Of a DNA stretch of 64,000 nucleotides, positions 28,199 through 34,665 are shown piece after piece; within the stretch, counting starts at the first letter, position 1, and every line of letters starts with the position of its first letter. The position numbers and the translations under genes were made by a program. Under the pieces are notes generated by a model. That model was not told the origin of the DNA. It searched no databases and saw only the letters and a program-made list of their open reading frames with translations. This DNA is from Bacteroidia bacterium. Lineage in GTDB: Bacteria > Bacteroidota > Bacteroidia > Chitinophagales > Chitinophagaceae. The stretch lies in the NCBI GenBank assembly GCA_030427635.1, contig JAUIBA010000007.1, positions 120,375 through 184,374 of the forward strand, in the 5' to 3' direction.

Positions 28199-28780
28199 GA
28201 AACTAACAGTTGGTTTTTTATAACAGCTAAGGTAAAATTAATGTACCGATGTGGGGAATACCGGAAGTGTGAAAGTATGCTATTGTAAGAAATGATGGTG
28301 CACAGGAGGCTGGATACGCCTCAAAGCGTATATACTAAATTACCTGTGCCTGTAAAACTGCGCAGTGGGCAATTATTTATTTTATGGGTAGTGCATATTA
28401 TGGCTTTTGGCTTTAAGTTGTTGATAATTAATTGTTTATATGATGGTTTAATGTGGTTTTGAGTGATAAAAATGCTCAAAAAGGTTACAAAAATTGCTCG
28501 CGGAAAATTTTATATATAAGGTGTGGGAATGGAAAATAACAGTTGTATAATAAGGGTGTAACCGGTGGTGGCTGAATGAGATGATACATATACTGCAAGG
28601 TGCTGCAAATAAGTGATGTGCGGAAAAATATGCTATATGCCGCAACTGAAATGTGCATATCATGTAATATTTAACACTGGAGACGGGCGGGTGTAGTGGG
28701 GTAAGCAGGTGGATGAAATACCGTAAAACTACGCTTGTATAAAAGAACACCAATCCCTAAATTGGGAAATATGATATAAA
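28199..28780. other. Intergenic region between the GNAT operon and tracrRNA
   Basis: No convincing gene is seen. It is AT-rich with a few GC-rich islands, and contains one copy of the 26-nt dispersed motif (28479-28504). Short matches to the upstream regions of the duplicated lipoprotein genes are also visible: GCGCAGT followed by ATTTATT near 28360, TTGATAAT near 28430 and CCGGTGGTGGC near 28562. A 101-codon minus-strand frame (28448-28753) lacks coding character. Confidence 0.6.
28479..28504. repeat. 26-nt dispersed motif, copy 1
   Basis: Begins AAAAGGTTACAAAAATTGCT and ends CGCGGA. The identical 26 bases occur at 50300-50325 and 51679-51704. All three lie 281-285 bp upstream of the start of a minus-strand gene. 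Confidence 0.85.
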
Positions 28781-28858
28781 TAAAGAAGGCGAGTTGCCCC
28801 GCCTTAAATGTTTTCACAACGGAATAATCCTTATTGTGATTTGCTTCAACAATGTAAA
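28781..28858 (-). ncRNA. tracrRNA (short form) of the type II-C system
   Basis: The minus strand carries an anti-repeat at about 28854-28833 that pairs with the first 20 or so bases of the crRNA-sense repeat, with one deleted base. It continues into AATAAGGATTATTCCGTTGT, whose GGATTATTCC is a small nexus-like hairpin, and ends in a terminator hairpin (28786-28793 with 28798-28805, loop 28794-28797) followed by a T-rich tail. The order anti-repeat, nexus, terminator is that of Cas9 tracrRNAs. It is read opposite to cas9, on the same strand as the array. Ends are estimated. Confidence 0.9.
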
Positions 28859-28885
28859 GATAAAAGAAAATAAATCTTGGAACAA
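28855..28885 (-). promoter_or_regulatory. Candidate promoter for short tracrRNA
   Basis: On the minus strand TTG (28885-28883) and TATCTTTA (28862-28855, one mismatch to TAnnTTTG) are 20 bp apart. The predicted start near 28850 falls at the 5' edge of the anti-repeat, which is what a short tracrRNA needs. Confidence 0.55.
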
Positions 28886-28894
28886 TTTATGCTT

Positions 28895-28955
28895 CCTAAA
28901 AGATTCATCATCTCTTCGATGTTGGCATCAAGAGTTTTGTAGATGAATTTCTAGG
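28895..28955 (-). other. Long hairpin in the linker of the candidate single-guide RNA
   Basis: Outer arms 28895-28909 and 28942-28955 pair through CCTA and TTCATC blocks around a short mismatched stretch. The inner stem is CTCTT/AAGAG plus GATG/CATC (28912-28921 with 28926-28934), with one bulged base and a TTGG loop on the plus strand. It would bring the mini-repeat and the anti-repeat close together. Confidence 0.6.
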
Positions 28956-28981
28956 TTTCTTCTTGTGCAAAACGACTAAAG

Positions 28982-29007
28982 AGCAAATCACAACTCAACA
29001 CCGTACA
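28982..29007 (-). promoter_or_regulatory. Mini-repeat plus 13-nt guide segment upstream of tracrRNA
   Basis: Positions 28982-28994 are identical to one end of the CRISPR repeat (plus-strand sense AGCAAATCACAAC). The adjoining 28995-29007 is the exact reverse complement of 29139-29151 in front of cas9. The junction of the two falls exactly where a spacer would meet a repeat. Confidence 0.8.
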
Positions 29008-29111
29008 ATGAAAAAAATCATAACAATAAAGGCAAGAAATGACATTCCAAGTTTGGATTTTGGACACCCTCACTAATCAGAGTAGTTGCGCAGTTACTTT
29101 GATTTAACCCT

Positions 29112-29119
29112 TATGTTTG
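29112..29119 (+). promoter_or_regulatory. Candidate cas9 promoter (upstream)
   Basis: TATGTTTG fits TAnnTTTG; TTG at 29086-29088 lies 23 bp upstream, slightly long. Transcription would start near 29125, leaving about 58 nt of leader that contains the guide-matching site at 29139-29151. Confidence 0.45.
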
Positions 29120-29127
29120 CAAAGCTA
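29120..29127 (-). promoter_or_regulatory. Candidate promoter element for long tracrRNA
   Basis: On the minus strand TAGCTTTG (29127 to 29120) fits TAnnTTTG. No minus-33 TTTG is seen at the right distance. It abuts the plus-strand element for cas9, so the two could be divergent overlapping promoters. Confidence 0.35.
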
Positions 29128-29138
29128 CATAAAAAACA

Positions 29139-29151
29139 TGTACGGTGTTGA
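29139..29151 (+). promoter_or_regulatory. Site in front of cas9 matching the natural guide
   Basis: TGTACGGTGTTGA is identical, 13 of 13, to the segment preceding the mini-repeat on the minus strand (29007-28995). As a protospacer its 3' flank is TAAAATGAA, where a type II-C PAM would be read. The site sits 31-44 bp before the likely cas9 ATG. Confidence 0.7.
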
Positions 29152-29160
29152 TAAAATGAA

Positions 29161-29168
29161 TATTTTTG
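29161..29168 (+). promoter_or_regulatory. Alternative cas9 promoter minus-7 element
   Basis: TATTTTTG fits TAnnTTTG and ends 14 bp before the ATG at 29183. If used, the guide-matching site 29139-29151 lies inside the promoter, between the minus-33 and minus-7 regions. No TTTG is seen 20 bp upstream. Confidence 0.35.
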
Positions 29169-29182
29169 AACAAAGATTAAAT

Positions 29183-32100
29183 ATGAAAAAAACAAAGACG
29201 ATTTTAGGCCTTGATTTGGGAACAAACTCAATTGGGTGGGCGCTTATAAATCAGGATTTTGAGCAGAAGTATGGAGAAATTGTAGGTATAGGTAGCCGTA
29301 TCATACCTATGTCGCAGGATATACTGGGTGATTTTGAAAAAGGTAATAAAATATCCCAGACCGCTGAGCGAACCAGACTGAGAGGCATGAGAAGACTCAA
29401 GGAGCGGCACCTGCTGAGGCGGGAGCGACTGCACCGTGTGCTACATGTACTGGGCTTTTTGCCCAGCCACTATGCTGCCAGTATTGACTTTGATATACGG
29501 GTGGGAAAGTTCCTGCCAGAAACAGAAGCAAAGCTGCCTTATGACGGTAATGGCAATTTTATATTCAGGGATTCTTTTGAAGAAATGCTGGCAGATTTTA
29601 GCCAGCATCAGCCGGCACTTGTAGCTGACGGGAAAAAGGTGCCTTATGACTGGACAATATATTATCTGCGTAAAAAAGCGCTGAGTGAACTGATTACCGA
29701 TGAGGAGCTGGCATGGCTGTTACTGCACTTTAATCAGAAGCGGGGTTATTATCAGCTGAGAGGGGAGGAGGCTGAAGACAAGCCGAATAAAACAGAAGCA
29801 TACTATTCATTAAGAATAGATGATGTAACTGCTGATGAGCCGCAGAAAGGCAAAAGTGAAATATGGTATAACATAATGCTGGAGAATGGATGGGTGTACC
29901 GTAGAGCGAGCAAAACACCACTATATGACTGGAAGGGGAATGTAAAGGACTTTGTGGTGACGACTGAGCTGAATGAGGATGGAAGTATAAAGATGGATAA
30001 GGAGGGGAAAGAGAAGAGGAGTTTCAGAGCGCCGAAGGATGATGACTGGCAGTTAATGAAAAAGAAAACAGAAAACGAAATAACGCAAAGCAATAGCACG
30101 GTGGGTGTGTATATCTATGATACTTTGCTGCGTAACCCGGGTCAGAAAATAAAAGGGAAGCTGGTAAAAACAATAGAGCGTAAATACTATAAAGAAGAGC
30201 TGGTACAGATACTGCAAAAGCAGGTGGCATTAAACCCGGCATTGCGCGATACTGCAAAGTATAAAGAGTGTGTAGCAGAACTTTATCCGCATAATCATAA
30301 CCATCAGGCGACTCTTTTTCAGAAAGATTTTGTGCATCTGTTTACAGAAGATATTCTTTACTACCAGCGGCCACTGCGTAGTCAGAAAAGTGCAATAGGT
30401 AACTGCCCGCTGGAGTCGCGCATATATGTATTGGACGGCGTAAAGAAAGTGGCGCCGTTAAAGTGTATTCCGAAGTCACATCCTTTGTATCAGGAGTTCC
30501 GGTTGTGGCAATGGATAAGGAACCTGCATATATACCGAAAGGATGAAGAGCAGGTGCCGGTAACCAAAGAACTGCTGCCGGATATAGCCGGTTATGAAAA
30601 ACTGTTTGCCTTTCTGAATACGCAAAAAGAGATTACTAATAAGGCGCTGTTGAAACATCTGCTGGCACCATTAAAACTAAAGGGCAAAGCACTGGATGCA
30701 GCAGTAAACAAATACCGCTGGAACTATGCATATGATGAGACTGCGAAAACGGAAAAAAGCTACCCGTGCAATGAAACCCGTGCTGCTATAATGAGCCGCC
30801 TGGCACAGGTGGCATACCTGCCCGAAGATTTTCTTACCCGAACGCGGGAGGAAACGTTATGGCACATAATATATTCTGTTACGGATAAAAAGGAATATGA
30901 AAAGGCACTCAGGTCTTTTGCCGAAAAAAACAGCATAAATGTGGATAGCTTTTATGAGGCTTTCAGGCGGTTTCCCCCTTTCCCGGCAGACTATGGTGCA
31001 TACTCGGCAAAAGCGATAAAGAAGTTATTGCCGCTAATGCGTATGGGGCACTATCAGGACCGTACTGCAATAGATGACAGAACAAGGGACAGGATAGAAA
31101 AAATAATAAATGCTGAGTATGATGATAGTATAAAAGAGCAGGTAAGGGTGAAGGCGATACACCTGACAACTGAAGCGCATTTTCAGGGACTGCCGGAATG
31201 GCTGGCAAAGTATATAGTATATGACCGCCATGCAGAAGGGAAAGATACCGGAAGGTGGAAGTGTGTAGCAGAAATGGAAGAATACCTGAAAGGATTCAGG
31301 CAGCATTCATTAAGAAACCCGATAGTAGAGCAGGTGATAACAGAGGCGCTGCGGCTGGTGAAAGATATATGGCAGCATTATGGGCATGGCGCCGAAAACT
31401 ACTTTGATGAAATACACATAGAGCTGGGGCGGGAGATGAAGAACCCGCTGAGTGTGAGGCAGGAAATGGCTGCAAAGCAGAGCATCAATGAAAATACAAA
31501 CCTGAGGATAAAAGCACTGCTGGCGGAGCTGCTAAATGACAACGCAGTGGAAAACGTACGTCCTTACTCGCCCATGCAGCAGGAAATACTGAAAATATAT
31601 GAAGACACGGTGCTGCATCAAGATATAGACATACCGGATGATATAGTGAAGATAAGCAAAATGGCACAGCCATCGGGAGCCGAGCTACAACGCTATAAAC
31701 TATGGCTGGAACAAAAATACAGGTCGCCCTATACGGGTGATATAATACCGCTCAATAAGCTCTTTACCCCGGCTTATGAGATAGAACACATTATACCTCA
31801 AAGCAGATATTTTGATGACAGTGCCAGCAATAAGGTGATATGCGAAGCCGCAGTGAATAAGCTAAAGGATAACATGACAGGGCTGGAATTTATCAGAAAT
31901 CATCATGGCCAGGTGGTGGAAACAGGGATGGGGAAAAGTGTGAAGATTTTTACAGAGGAAGCATATACCCAATTTGCAACACAGCATTATGCCGGAAACA
32001 GGGCAAAGAAAATGAAACTCCTTTCTGCCGATGTGCCGGAAAAAATGATAGCACGACAACTCAATGATACAAGATACATAAGCCGGTATGTGATGCAGGT

Positions 32101-33697
32101 ACTTTCTAACCTGGTAAGGGAGCAGAAAAATGATGATGGTGTAAACTCAAAAAACATACTGGCAGCTAATGGACAGATAACGCAAAAACTAAGGCAGGAC
32201 TGGGGCCTTGATGCTATATGGAATGAACTGATACTGCCCAGATTTGAAAGGCTGAACCAGCTTACCGGTACCACAGATTATACTGTGTATAATGAGCGCT
32301 ACCGGAAGTACCTGCCTGCAGTACCTTATGACCAGCAAAAAGGATTTCAGAAAAAACGTATTGACCACCGGCACCATGCTATGGATGCGCTGGTAATGGC
32401 CTGCGCTACCCGTAGCCATATAAACTACCTGAACAACCAGCATGCACTGAACAAAACGAAAACAAAGGATGAGCGGCAGCGCGACCGACATGACCTGAAA
32501 GTGCTACTATGTGACAAGAAATTTAATAGCGGGAACACAGGCGATTATGCATGGATATTTAAAAAGCCCTGGAGCAACTTTATTGCAGATGCCAGGGCAC
32601 AACTGGAAAAAGTAATAGTGAGCTTCAGGCAAAACCTGCGCATTATCAATAAAACAGCTAACTACTACGAGCGGCTGAGAGATGGGAAAAAGGAGCTGGT
32701 GAAGCAGATGAAAGGGGAGAACTGGGCCATAAGGAAATCACTGCATAAGGACACAGTATCGGGCGTGGTGTCATTGAGAAAAACAAGGCAGGTGAAGCTG
32801 GCTGTGGCGCTGGATGAGCCGGGAAGTATAGTGAACAAGGATGTGCGCAGCTATATACAGAAAATGATAGCCAATGGCTATGATAAAAAAAGACTACAAA
32901 AGCATCTTAAAGACAATGGCAACAGGATAAACGGGGTGGATATCTCTGTGGTAGACATTTATTATTGGGACAATGGCAATGTAGCATCGCGCACGAGTCT
33001 GGATACCTCGTTTGACAAAAAGAAAATAGCTGCCGTAACAGATACCGGCATACAGAAAATACTACTGAGGCAACTGGAACTACATGCGGGAAAACCTGAG
33101 CTGGCATTTTCGCCGGAAGGTATAGAGGAGATGAACAGGAATATGACAGCGCTTAATGAGGGGAGGCCGCATAAGCCTGTATATAAGGTGCGTACCTATG
33201 AGGTTATGGGTAACAAATTTCCTGTAGGGCAAACGGGTAATAAGAGATACAAATATGTGGAAGCGGACAAAGGGACGAATCTGTTCTTTGCCATTTATGA
33301 GGATGAAGAAGGCAAAAGAAGCTATGAAACCATACCGCTGAATATTGCAATAGAGCGACAAAAGCAGGGCCTGTATGTAGTGCCTGAGGAAAATGAAAAA
33401 GGTAACAGGCTGGCATTTTATCTGTCGCCAAACGATCTGGTATATGTGGGTGATATGGATATCTCTGACCGCACTAATTTATCCCTTGCAGATTGCAGCA
33501 ATGTTTATAAGATGGTGAGCTCGTCAGGTAGTCAATGCTTTTTTATACGACATGATGTGTCGACTCCTATCATTAATAAACTTGAGTACTCTCCATTAAA
33601 TAAAATGGAGCGCTCGGTTGAAGGTGTTATGATAAAAGAAAACTGTATTAAACTATCTGTGAACCGGCTTGGATTTGTATCAAAAATATTGCCATGA
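29183..33697 (+). CDS. cas9: CRISPR-associated endonuclease Cas9, type II-C
   Basis: RNA-guided nuclease of 1504 residues from the ATG at 29183, which gives the family start MKKTKTILGLDLGTNSIGWAL. RuvC-I Asp is D11. An Arg-rich bridge helix follows (RLRGMRRLKERHLLRRERLHR). RuvC-II Glu is E747 in IHIELGREMK, the HNH His is H869 in YEIEHIIPQSRYFDDS, and RuvC-III has HHAMDA at 1064-1069. All nuclease residues are intact. In-frame ATGs at 29138 and 29156 and a TTG at 29117 are possible earlier starts, but the first two lie at or near the guide-matching site. It overlaps cas1 by 4 bp. The size fits large Bacteroidota II-C Cas9s. Confidence 0.97.
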   Translation: MKKTKTILGLDLGTNSIGWALINQDFEQKYGEIVGIGSRIIPMSQDILGDFEKGNKISQTAERTRLRGMRRLKERHLLRRERLHRVLHVLGFLPSHYAASIDFDIRVGKFLPETEAKLPYDGNGNFIFRDSFEEMLADFSQHQPALVADGKKVPYDWTIYYLRKKALSELITDEELAWLLLHFNQKRGYYQLRGEEAEDKPNKTEAYYSLRIDDVTADEPQKGKSEIWYNIMLENGWVYRRASKTPLYDWKGNVKDFVVTTELNEDGSIKMDKEGKEKRSFRAPKDDDWQLMKKKTENEITQSNSTVGVYIYDTLLRNPGQKIKGKLVKTIERKYYKEELVQILQKQVALNPALRDTAKYKECVAELYPHNHNHQATLFQKDFVHLFTEDILYYQRPLRSQKSAIGNCPLESRIYVLDGVKKVAPLKCIPKSHPLYQEFRLWQWIRNLHIYRKDEEQVPVTKELLPDIAGYEKLFAFLNTQKEITNKALLKHLLAPLKLKGKALDAAVNKYRWNYAYDETAKTEKSYPCNETRAAIMSRLAQVAYLPEDFLTRTREETLWHIIYSVTDKKEYEKALRSFAEKNSINVDSFYEAFRRFPPFPADYGAYSAKAIKKLLPLMRMGHYQDRTAIDDRTRDRIEKIINAEYDDSIKEQVRVKAIHLTTEAHFQGLPEWLAKYIVYDRHAEGKDTGRWKCVAEMEEYLKGFRQHSLRNPIVEQVITEALRLVKDIWQHYGHGAENYFDEIHIELGREMKNPLSVRQEMAAKQSINENTNLRIKALLAELLNDNAVENVRPYSPMQQEILKIYEDTVLHQDIDIPDDIVKISKMAQPSGAELQRYKLWLEQKYRSPYTGDIIPLNKLFTPAYEIEHIIPQSRYFDDSASNKVICEAAVNKLKDNMTGLEFIRNHHGQVVETGMGKSVKIFTEEAYTQFATQHYAGNRAKKMKLLSADVPEKMIARQLNDTRYISRYVMQVLSNLVREQKNDDGVNSKNILAANGQITQKLRQDWGLDAIWNELILPRFERLNQLTGTTDYTVYNERYRKYLPAVPYDQQKGFQKKRIDHRHHAMDALVMACATRSHINYLNNQHALNKTKTKDERQRDRHDLKVLLCDKKFNSGNTGDYAWIFKKPWSNFIADARAQLEKVIVSFRQNLRIINKTANYYERLRDGKKELVKQMKGENWAIRKSLHKDTVSGVVSLRKTRQVKLAVALDEPGSIVNKDVRSYIQKMIANGYDKKRLQKHLKDNGNRINGVDISVVDIYYWDNGNVASRTSLDTSFDKKKIAAVTDTGIQKILLRQLELHAGKPELAFSPEGIEEMNRNMTALNEGRPHKPVYKVRTYEVMGNKFPVGQTGNKRYKYVEADKGTNLFFAIYEDEEGKRSYETIPLNIAIERQKQGLYVVPEENEKGNRLAFYLSPNDLVYVGDMDISDRTNLSLADCSNVYKMVSSSGSQCFFIRHDVSTPIINKLEYSPLNKMERSVEGVMIKENCIKLSVNRLGFVSKILP

Positions 33698-34665
33698 TAA
33701 AACGTACCCTATACTTTGGCAATCCTGCTTACCTGCATACTGCCAATGAGCAGCTGGTGGTGGAGTTTCCATACCCTGCCGGTACTGAGGATGTAGTAAA
33801 GCCCCGGCCCCATACGGCTCCTATAGAGGATATAGGTGTGCTGCTGCTGGACCACCCGCAGATAACCATAAGCCAGGCCCTGCTCACAAAGCTGCTGGCC
33901 AACAACACGGCTGTGATAACGTGCGATAGTACGCACCACCCTACGGGCATGCTGCTGAACCTGGACGGACATACACTGCAGAGCAGAATATTTGCCGCAC
34001 AGACAGATGCCAGCGAGCCGCTGAAGAAACAACTGTGGCAGCAGACCATAGCGGCCAAGATACACAACCAGGCAGCGCTGCTGGGGGCTGTGAGTGCAGA
34101 AGGGAGCCTGTGGGGAGAGCCGGATAAACTACTGCTGAATATGGCACGCGATGTAAAGAGCGGCGATAGCGGCAATGTGGAGGCGCAGGCTGCCAGCTAT
34201 TACTGGAAGCGGCTGCTGGTGCGGTGGCAACCCGGTTTTAGCCGGGACAGATATGGCATGCCGCCCAATAATATGCTGAACTATGGCTATGCCCTGCTGC
34301 GCGCAGTGGTGGCCCGCTGCCTTACCGGTAGTGGCCTGCTGCCTACACTGGGCATACACCACCGCAACCAGTATAATGCCTACTGCCTGGCTGATGATAT
34401 AATGGAGCCTTACAGACCCTTTGCCGACAAGGTAATATGTGATATAGTGGCGGCACATGATGGCCCGCTGCCGGTAACGCTGACCAAAGAGATAAAGGCG
34501 CAGATACTGGCTATACCTGCTATGGATGTGCGCATAGCACGCAGCCCTGCGGCAAAGGATACAGAGCGTAGCCCGCTGATGGTGGCTGTGGAAAAGACCA
34601 CAGCCAGCCTGGCAAAGTGCTATGAGGGCAGCGGCAGAAAGCTGCTGTACCCGGTAATGGAGTAG
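33694..34665 (+). CDS. cas1: CRISPR adaptation integrase Cas1, type II
   Basis: A 323-residue integrase subunit that with Cas2 inserts new spacers at the leader end. Metal-binding residues are E163 (GNVEAQAASYYW), H223 (GIHHRNQYNAYCL) and E238 (DDIMEPYRPF). Its ATG overlaps the cas9 stop as A-T-G-A, so translation is likely coupled. The locus has no csn2 or cas4, which defines subtype II-C. Confidence 0.97.
   Translation: MIKRTLYFGNPAYLHTANEQLVVEFPYPAGTEDVVKPRPHTAPIEDIGVLLLDHPQITISQALLTKLLANNTAVITCDSTHHPTGMLLNLDGHTLQSRIFAAQTDASEPLKKQLWQQTIAAKIHNQAALLGAVSAEGSLWGEPDKLLLNMARDVKSGDSGNVEAQAASYYWKRLLVRWQPGFSRDRYGMPPNNMLNYGYALLRAVVARCLTGSGLLPTLGIHHRNQYNAYCLADDIMEPYRPFADKVICDIVAAHDGPLPVTLTKEIKAQILAIPAMDVRIARSPAAKDTERSPLMVAVEKTTASLAKCYEGSGRKLLYPVME

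Follow-up and report, generated by a model that had tools for sequence, protein, structure and literature searches.

The best described counterpart of the element reported here is tracr-L of S. pyogenes, a natural single-guide RNA through which a type II-A Cas9 represses its own expression (PMC11417352, PMC8730458). In the passages that describe it, tracr-L is a long tracrRNA form that folds in cis, carries a short match to the cas promoter region followed by a PAM and represses without cleavage. The element found here has such a match, with a putative PAM beside it, and a predicted cis fold; the long form and repression without cleavage are what we infer for our locus as well. Workman et al. 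2021 is reportedly the original account of tracr-L.

Several other small RNAs share parts of this design. The scaRNA of Francisella novicida (type II-B) directs Cas9 repression without cutting (PMC8730458, PMC13431127). As described there, it combines a diverged repeat with a short guide, like the module studied here, but it uses the tracrRNA in trans and targets lipoprotein genes, not cas9. CreR are the cas-regulating RNAs of types I-B, I-E and V-A (PMC13131331): crRNA-like RNAs with a partial match to a cas promoter that act in autorepression. They belong to other effector types, and the passage of PMC13131331 that covers them describes no tracrRNA linkage. The scaRNA of Neisseria meningitidis is a Cas9-bound non-coding RNA linked to a type II-C locus; unlike a DNA guide to cas9, it regulates the efeO mRNA post-transcriptionally, according to the part of PMC13431127 that deals with it.

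A scaRNA survey of pathogenic type II strains covers some loci labelled "Type IIC" (PMC6199352), and a term search of that paper returned no mention of Bacteroidetes or autoregulation. Natural single-guide autorepression of cas9 in a II-C system was found nowhere in the literature searched, a body of text mostly free of subscription papers and preprints and represented in part by passages. What is already known is type II-A autorepression by a natural single guide; what is described here concerns a distant Cas9 subtype with locus-specific guide/target pairs.

The cas locus and the putative guide RNA of the window

The window, i.e. the whole stretch of 64,000 nt that was analysed, carries a CRISPR-Cas locus of a Bacteroidota genome. 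Within it, a minus-strand RNA of approximately 29,015–28,781 is probably a natural single-guide RNA that would take Cas9 to the cas9 leader and likely repress the gene without cutting it. The features of the locus are as follows.

28781–28830, minus strand: tracrRNA body and terminator hairpin; a 24-nt core spanning the anti-repeat is conserved in relatives
28831–28846, minus strand: tracrRNA anti-repeat AAGCAAATCACAATAA, complementary to the repeat and paired with the mini-repeat in the predicted fold
28847–28981, minus strand: structured linker between mini-repeat and anti-repeat (fold)
28855–28862, minus strand: TATCTTTA, likely -7 box of a short tracrRNA (predicted by motif scan; one mismatch to TAnnTTTG)
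28982–28994, minus strand: mini-repeat GTTGTGATTTGCT, identified by identity with the 5′ end of the array repeat
28995–29007, minus strand: 13-nt guide seed TGTACGGTGTTGA, abutting the mini-repeat on its 5′ side
29086–29119, plus strand: predicted cas9 promoter TTG-N23-TATGTTTG (motif scan)
29139–29151, plus strand: predicted guide target TGTACGGTGTTGA
29152–29157, plus strand: PAM-side flank of the target, TAAAAT, fitting NNAAAT (flank comparison)
29183–33697, plus strand: cas9 (type II) from its likely start; TIGR01865, 401.6 bits; HNH and RuvC_III domains
33694–34665, plus strand: cas1 (type II); TIGR03639, 267.2 bits
34706–35041, plus strand: cas2; TIGR01573
35131–38247, minus strand (crRNA sense): CRISPR array of 41 repeats of 47 nt and 40 spacers

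The system is of type II-C: cas9, cas1 and cas2 stand in a row and are followed by the array, with neither csn2 nor cas4, and the 90 nt between cas2 and the array leave no space there for a fourth cas gene. The start of cas9 is most likely the ATG at 29183, because related proteins begin just before ILGLDLGTN. The predicted promoter contains TATGTTTG, which matches TAnnTTTG in the motif scan; the relevant passage of PMC10309648 names this sequence as the promoter motif of Bacteroidetes. The target starts 19 nt downstream of this motif and lies between the promoter and the likely start codon. The sequence-only reading had placed the target just before the cas9 ATG. In-frame ATGs are also present at 29138 and 29156, and with 29138 as the start the target would be intragenic in cas9.

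Read along the minus strand, the order is guide seed, mini-repeat, linker, anti-repeat and tracrRNA tail, the tracrRNA including a terminator-like hairpin near 28790. A check of the letters showed that the 47-nt array repeat, in crRNA sense, begins with the same 13 nt as make up the mini-repeat GTTGTGATTTGCT. It also bore out the initial observation that the 13 nt before the mini-repeat are identical to a site upstream of cas9. The identity ends at the repeat boundary, while on the other side only 1 of the next 11 positions agrees. In the window, the guide thus matches a short piece of the promoter or leader of the cas operon to which it belongs, and this match stops at the repeat. That the mini-repeat stands upstream of the anti-repeat on the minus strand was likewise correct; their spacing is 135 nt (anti-repeat start, 28846) rather than the 128 nt first given.

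A chance match at this junction had been judged very unlikely, and the counts agree with this. TGTACGGTGTTGA occurs twice in the 64-kb window and twice in the whole 4.25-Mb genome, in each case as guide and target. Dinucleotide shuffling of the 366-nt target strand, repeated 2000 times, gave anchored matches of 9 nt at most, and the observed 13 nt were never reached. The 13-mer is absent from all 40 array spacers, as judged from a search with an 8-nt core of it.

The RNA from 29015 to 28780 folds with a predicted energy of -64 kcal/mol (z -4.83 against 200 shuffles). In this fold, a repeat-like segment upstream of the anti-repeat and on the same strand as the tracrRNA pairs with it in cis: the mini-repeat:anti-repeat duplex has a pairing probability of 0.89–1.0 at 13 consecutive positions. 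The long linker hairpin proposed at 28895–28955 did not appear, as the minimum-energy structure uses other linker helices, but the cis pairing that it was meant to allow is predicted. As modelled, the arrangement is that of a single-guide RNA in which the linker replaces the engineered loop. A scan for the promoter of the long minus-strand RNA gave weak boxes, none of which we claim, and Rfam returned no matches up to E 1 for 28200–29300.

The guide and target copies are inverted and lie 131 nt apart, which would also be seen if they formed an ordinary antisense RNA or a leader hairpin acting independently of Cas9; moreover, an RNA that began within cas9 on the minus strand would run antisense to the leader. 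We consider this explanation hardly credible. Since the guide has the sequence of the cas9 mRNA and not that of its complement, it could pair with the DNA template strand but not with the mRNA. An antisense RNA or a hairpin would have no need of a repeat at the junction or of a flank shared with other loci (see below).

Modules at other Bacteroidota loci

To compare loci, groups of Bacteroidota genomes were searched for the conserved 24-nt core of the tracrRNA, allowing 2 mismatches at most. The core was present in 5 of 35 genomes of the genus, 66 of 396 of the order, 27 of 395 of the phylum and 56 of 395 of the class, as well as in 26 of 148 of the family of G955 and 58 of 208 of the order of G1378; these groups overlap. 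Three small genera were added, those of G015 (core in 1 of 3 genomes), G342 (2 of 10, one giving locus L131) and G175 (3 of 6). Further loci came from a Cas9 search that matched 130 of 394 family genomes, from which 30 loci were taken automatically and 13 genomes by hand, the others entering only via the core search. Since the survey rests on the conserved core, loci with another tracrRNA lie outside its coverage.

Removal of nine duplicate loci and of sites no more than 200 nt from a contig end left 239 distinct tracrRNA sites. Of these, 207 have a Cas9 start motif at a distance of up to 1.5 kb and were scored; the other 32 were set aside. For scoring, repeat-like 13-mers were collected from both strands of the interval between anti-repeat and cas9, and the bases preceding each of them were compared with the opposite strand.

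The module is present in 10 of the 207 scored loci, the window included. Each has a guide of its own that matches its own cas9 upstream region, nine of them exactly over 10–14 nt:

tracrRNA strand, exact: window, 13 nt; L004, 12; L006, 11; L008, 11; L059, 14; L251, 13
tracrRNA strand, one mismatch: L148, 11 of 12
cas9 strand, in the cas9 leader: L060, 13 nt; L069, 11; L131, 10

Seven modules are thus linked to the tracrRNA as in the window and three lie in the cas9 leader. All ten matches stop at the boundary with the repeat. Wherever an array was found, the mini-repeat is similar to the 5′ end of the repeat in that same locus; the array search covered the module loci other than L148 and L251, and no array was found near L008 or L060. 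All ten modules are among the 16 loci whose tracrRNA–cas9 gap is at least 250 nt, and none among the 191 others (Fisher test, 2.5e-13). This gap length provides a search rule for more modules.

The matches were compared with two backgrounds. Of 2000 shuffles per target strand, none equalled the match in 7 of the 10 loci, one did so in L069 and two in L131, which are weaker cases. L148, which was first spotted by eye after the exact-match screen had missed it, has 7 nt of exact match; this was reached in 87 of 2000 shuffles and by exact match alone is not significant. Among 40,014 other anchors, a null that includes hairpins and duplications, 10 nt were reached in 311 and 11 of 12 in 487.

We then asked whether guides fit their own targets, using the nine modules known at that point and the weak case L074; L251 was found after this comparison and after the Cas9 tree described below. 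In the 10 × 10 comparison, the exact match of a guide to its own region measured 10–14 nt for 8 loci, 7 nt for L148 and 8 nt for L074, whereas none of the 90 cross comparisons exceeded 8 nt. When mismatches were allowed, the L131 guide agreed at 11 of 12 positions with the L059 region and at 10 of 12 with its own, which makes L131 the least certain module. Covariation of guide and target in related Bacteroidota, which had been suggested as a check, is therefore seen as locus-matched pairs in 10 of 207 loci. On these comparisons, the layout is constant across loci while the letters of guide and target differ.

The decisive evidence for a self-silencing guide, as far as sequences can provide it, is this comparison. 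Because nine related loci have pairs of different sequence, the stretch in the window is predicted to make a guide RNA. The interpretation offered by the sequence-only reading is supported, repression without cleavage being the part of it that we infer.

In a tree of Cas9 N-termini from 156 loci, the modules are scattered, and the eight marked ones require at least 7 changes (L148 was unmarked and L251 absent). Their closest module-free neighbours have gaps of 33–103 nt. In the four other tracrRNA-bearing genomes of the window's genus (35 searched), the regions inspected contain no mini-repeat, which leaves no close relative for a test of selection. A contig search gave one relative, L002, without a mini-repeat, and the genera of G015, G342 and G175 held no second copy of the same guide.

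Such patchiness, with modules missing in close relatives, would be expected of functionless relics left by inverted duplication or by the decay of a mini-array. So would the orientation: guide and target are inverted in 10 of 10 modules and never direct, although both orientations were searched (direct copies measure 3–5 nt in eight module loci, 7 in L069 and 9 in L131), and mutation that makes inverted copies would give the same picture. An imperfect copy of about 22 nt in L074 points the same way. Nevertheless, we regard relics as very improbable. They do not account for matches of 10–14 nt that end at the repeat boundary in every locus or for the same flank in 6 of 10, and the modules recur in distant Cas9 lineages with different letters, where relics would lose such matches. 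A mini-repeat kept without its match, named beforehand as the case that would count against a guide, was partly encountered: L021 has a repeat-like 13-mer and no match, while L074 retains an 8-nt anchored match in addition to its gapped imperfect copy.

A more serious possibility, though still an unlikely one, is that guide and mini-repeat form a separate crRNA-like RNA, in the manner of scaRNA or CreR, which pairs in trans with a short tracrRNA and whose location is incidental. The outcome would be the same, with Cas9 on the cas9 leader. The units of L060, L069 and L131 are on the cas9 strand, which rules out a common RNA with the tracrRNA, and their guides would need a tracrRNA in trans; these three loci are closer to the scaRNA of F. 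novicida, as described in the passages cited above, than the window is. The 566 nt between mini-repeat and anti-repeat in L008 also make trans action possible there, and the window keeps the box of a short tracrRNA. On the other hand, 7 of 10 units share the strand of the tracrRNA, lie upstream of the anti-repeat and are predicted to fold onto it. This cis pairing is predicted in all 7 tracrRNA-linked loci, more weakly at the 5′ end in L006 and L148, and two mini-repeat changes in L004 retain it as G-U wobbles. The layout of the window speaks for cis pairing, and no terminator is evident there between the unit and the tracrRNA, as judged without a terminator model for Bacteroidota.

Target flanks and the proposed mode of repression

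On the plus strand of the window, TAAAATGA directly follows the target TGTACGGTGTTGA. The flanks of six targets fit NNAAAT (TAAAAT, AAAAAT, ATAAAT, CTAAAT, TGAAAT and TAAAAT) and those of four do not (TGAAGC, GAGAGC, GAGAAT and AGGTTC). A 4-mer shared at one offset by at least 6 of 10 loci was found in 0 of 20,000 random position sets. From these flanks, NNAAAT is the predicted PAM. For a Flavobacterium II-C Cas9, the putative PAM given in the relevant passage of PMC10309648 is NNAAAG.

No PAM could be derived from the array. Against phages it gave one record (38 nt at 84%, E 1) and against plasmids two, the better of which aligns in 7 pieces with 49% of the query, at 67%, and looks like another CRISPR array. 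Pieces of 3 of the 40 spacers, searched as exact 19–21-mers against viral contigs, gave 0 matches each.

In the reading that we prefer for the window, a long RNA would be transcribed from the guide through the tracrRNA, and its mini-repeat and anti-repeat are predicted to pair in cis, replacing the crRNA:tracrRNA duplex. Cas9 would bind this RNA and, so loaded, would settle on the cas9 leader and lower its transcription. Expression of cas9 would then stay low as long as neither Cas9 nor the guide is titrated away. For immunity guided by crRNAs, a short tracrRNA made from the nearer -7 box would still be available.

The HNH and RuvC motifs of Cas9 have catalytic roles. Both are intact in the domain and motif scan of the window's protein, which means that a full match would be harmful. 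A seed-length match would allow such a nuclease to bind and not to cleave, and matches of 10–14 nt ending in at least one mismatch fit this. The guide would pair with the cas9 template strand, and a dCas9 block downstream of the start site is known to be weaker on that strand. As the target is close to the predicted start site, interference with initiation is more plausible.

By analogy, the window element would work like tracr-L without being a member of it by descent, as it belongs to II-C and not to II-A. The II-A element as described uses an NGG PAM, in contrast to the NNAAAT flank, the unrelated guides and the second, cas9-leader layout of the Bacteroidota loci. In L060, L069 and L131 the cas9 message would itself carry the guide; if this is true, the message for Cas9 also yields a crRNA-like guide that shuts the gene off.

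Tentatively, and with slightly less than even confidence, we suggest that Cas9 self-silencing arose repeatedly in Bacteroidota II-C systems, in a tracrRNA-linked and an mRNA-leader architecture, with guide and target rewritten together while layout, seed length and PAM position stayed fixed. If so, CRISPR systems would repeatedly limit self-damage by aiming the nuclease at its own gene with a guide too short to cut. The ten natural guide/target pairs are material for the study of binding without cleavage and of PAM choice.

Other contents of the tracrRNA–cas9 gap

Several loci that resembled modules were rejected. L084, L141 and L200 have a duplicated anti-repeat or tracrRNA core, and L090 and L100 a tracrRNA beside repeat-like units with no Cas9 motif found. 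L021 was set aside for its 13-mer without a match. Six of the 16 loci with long gaps are without a counted module: L236 has no mini-repeat, L089 contains a decayed cas9 duplicate, and L094, L163 and L182 contain an ORF insertion. The sixth, L074, is a weak case with 8 nt of exact match and an imperfect gapped copy.

L074 carries at least two repeat-like pieces upstream of cas9, and its gapped copy reproduces, imperfectly, about 22 nt from a site that is also upstream of this gene; the locus possibly shows a module that is forming or decaying. Duplicated tracrRNA cores or anti-repeats occupy the gap in L084, L089, L141 and L200, and that of L089 also holds the decayed copy of the cas9 start.

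Two of the cas9-leader loci have further features. In L060, a tRNA-like sequence (1651–1722; ARAGORN, tRNA-???) lies between the predicted target and the guide. In L069, a long inverted repeat (GCTGCGTTGATT / AATCAACGCAGC) about 130–20 nt upstream of cas9 encloses guide and mini-repeat, and this repeat is followed by a T run, resembling a terminator, before the cas9 ATG.

The small ORF in the gap of L094 (1569–2075) encodes a HIRAN domain (Pfam PF08797, 49.3 bits), and the ORFs of L163 and L182 are similar to it by eye.
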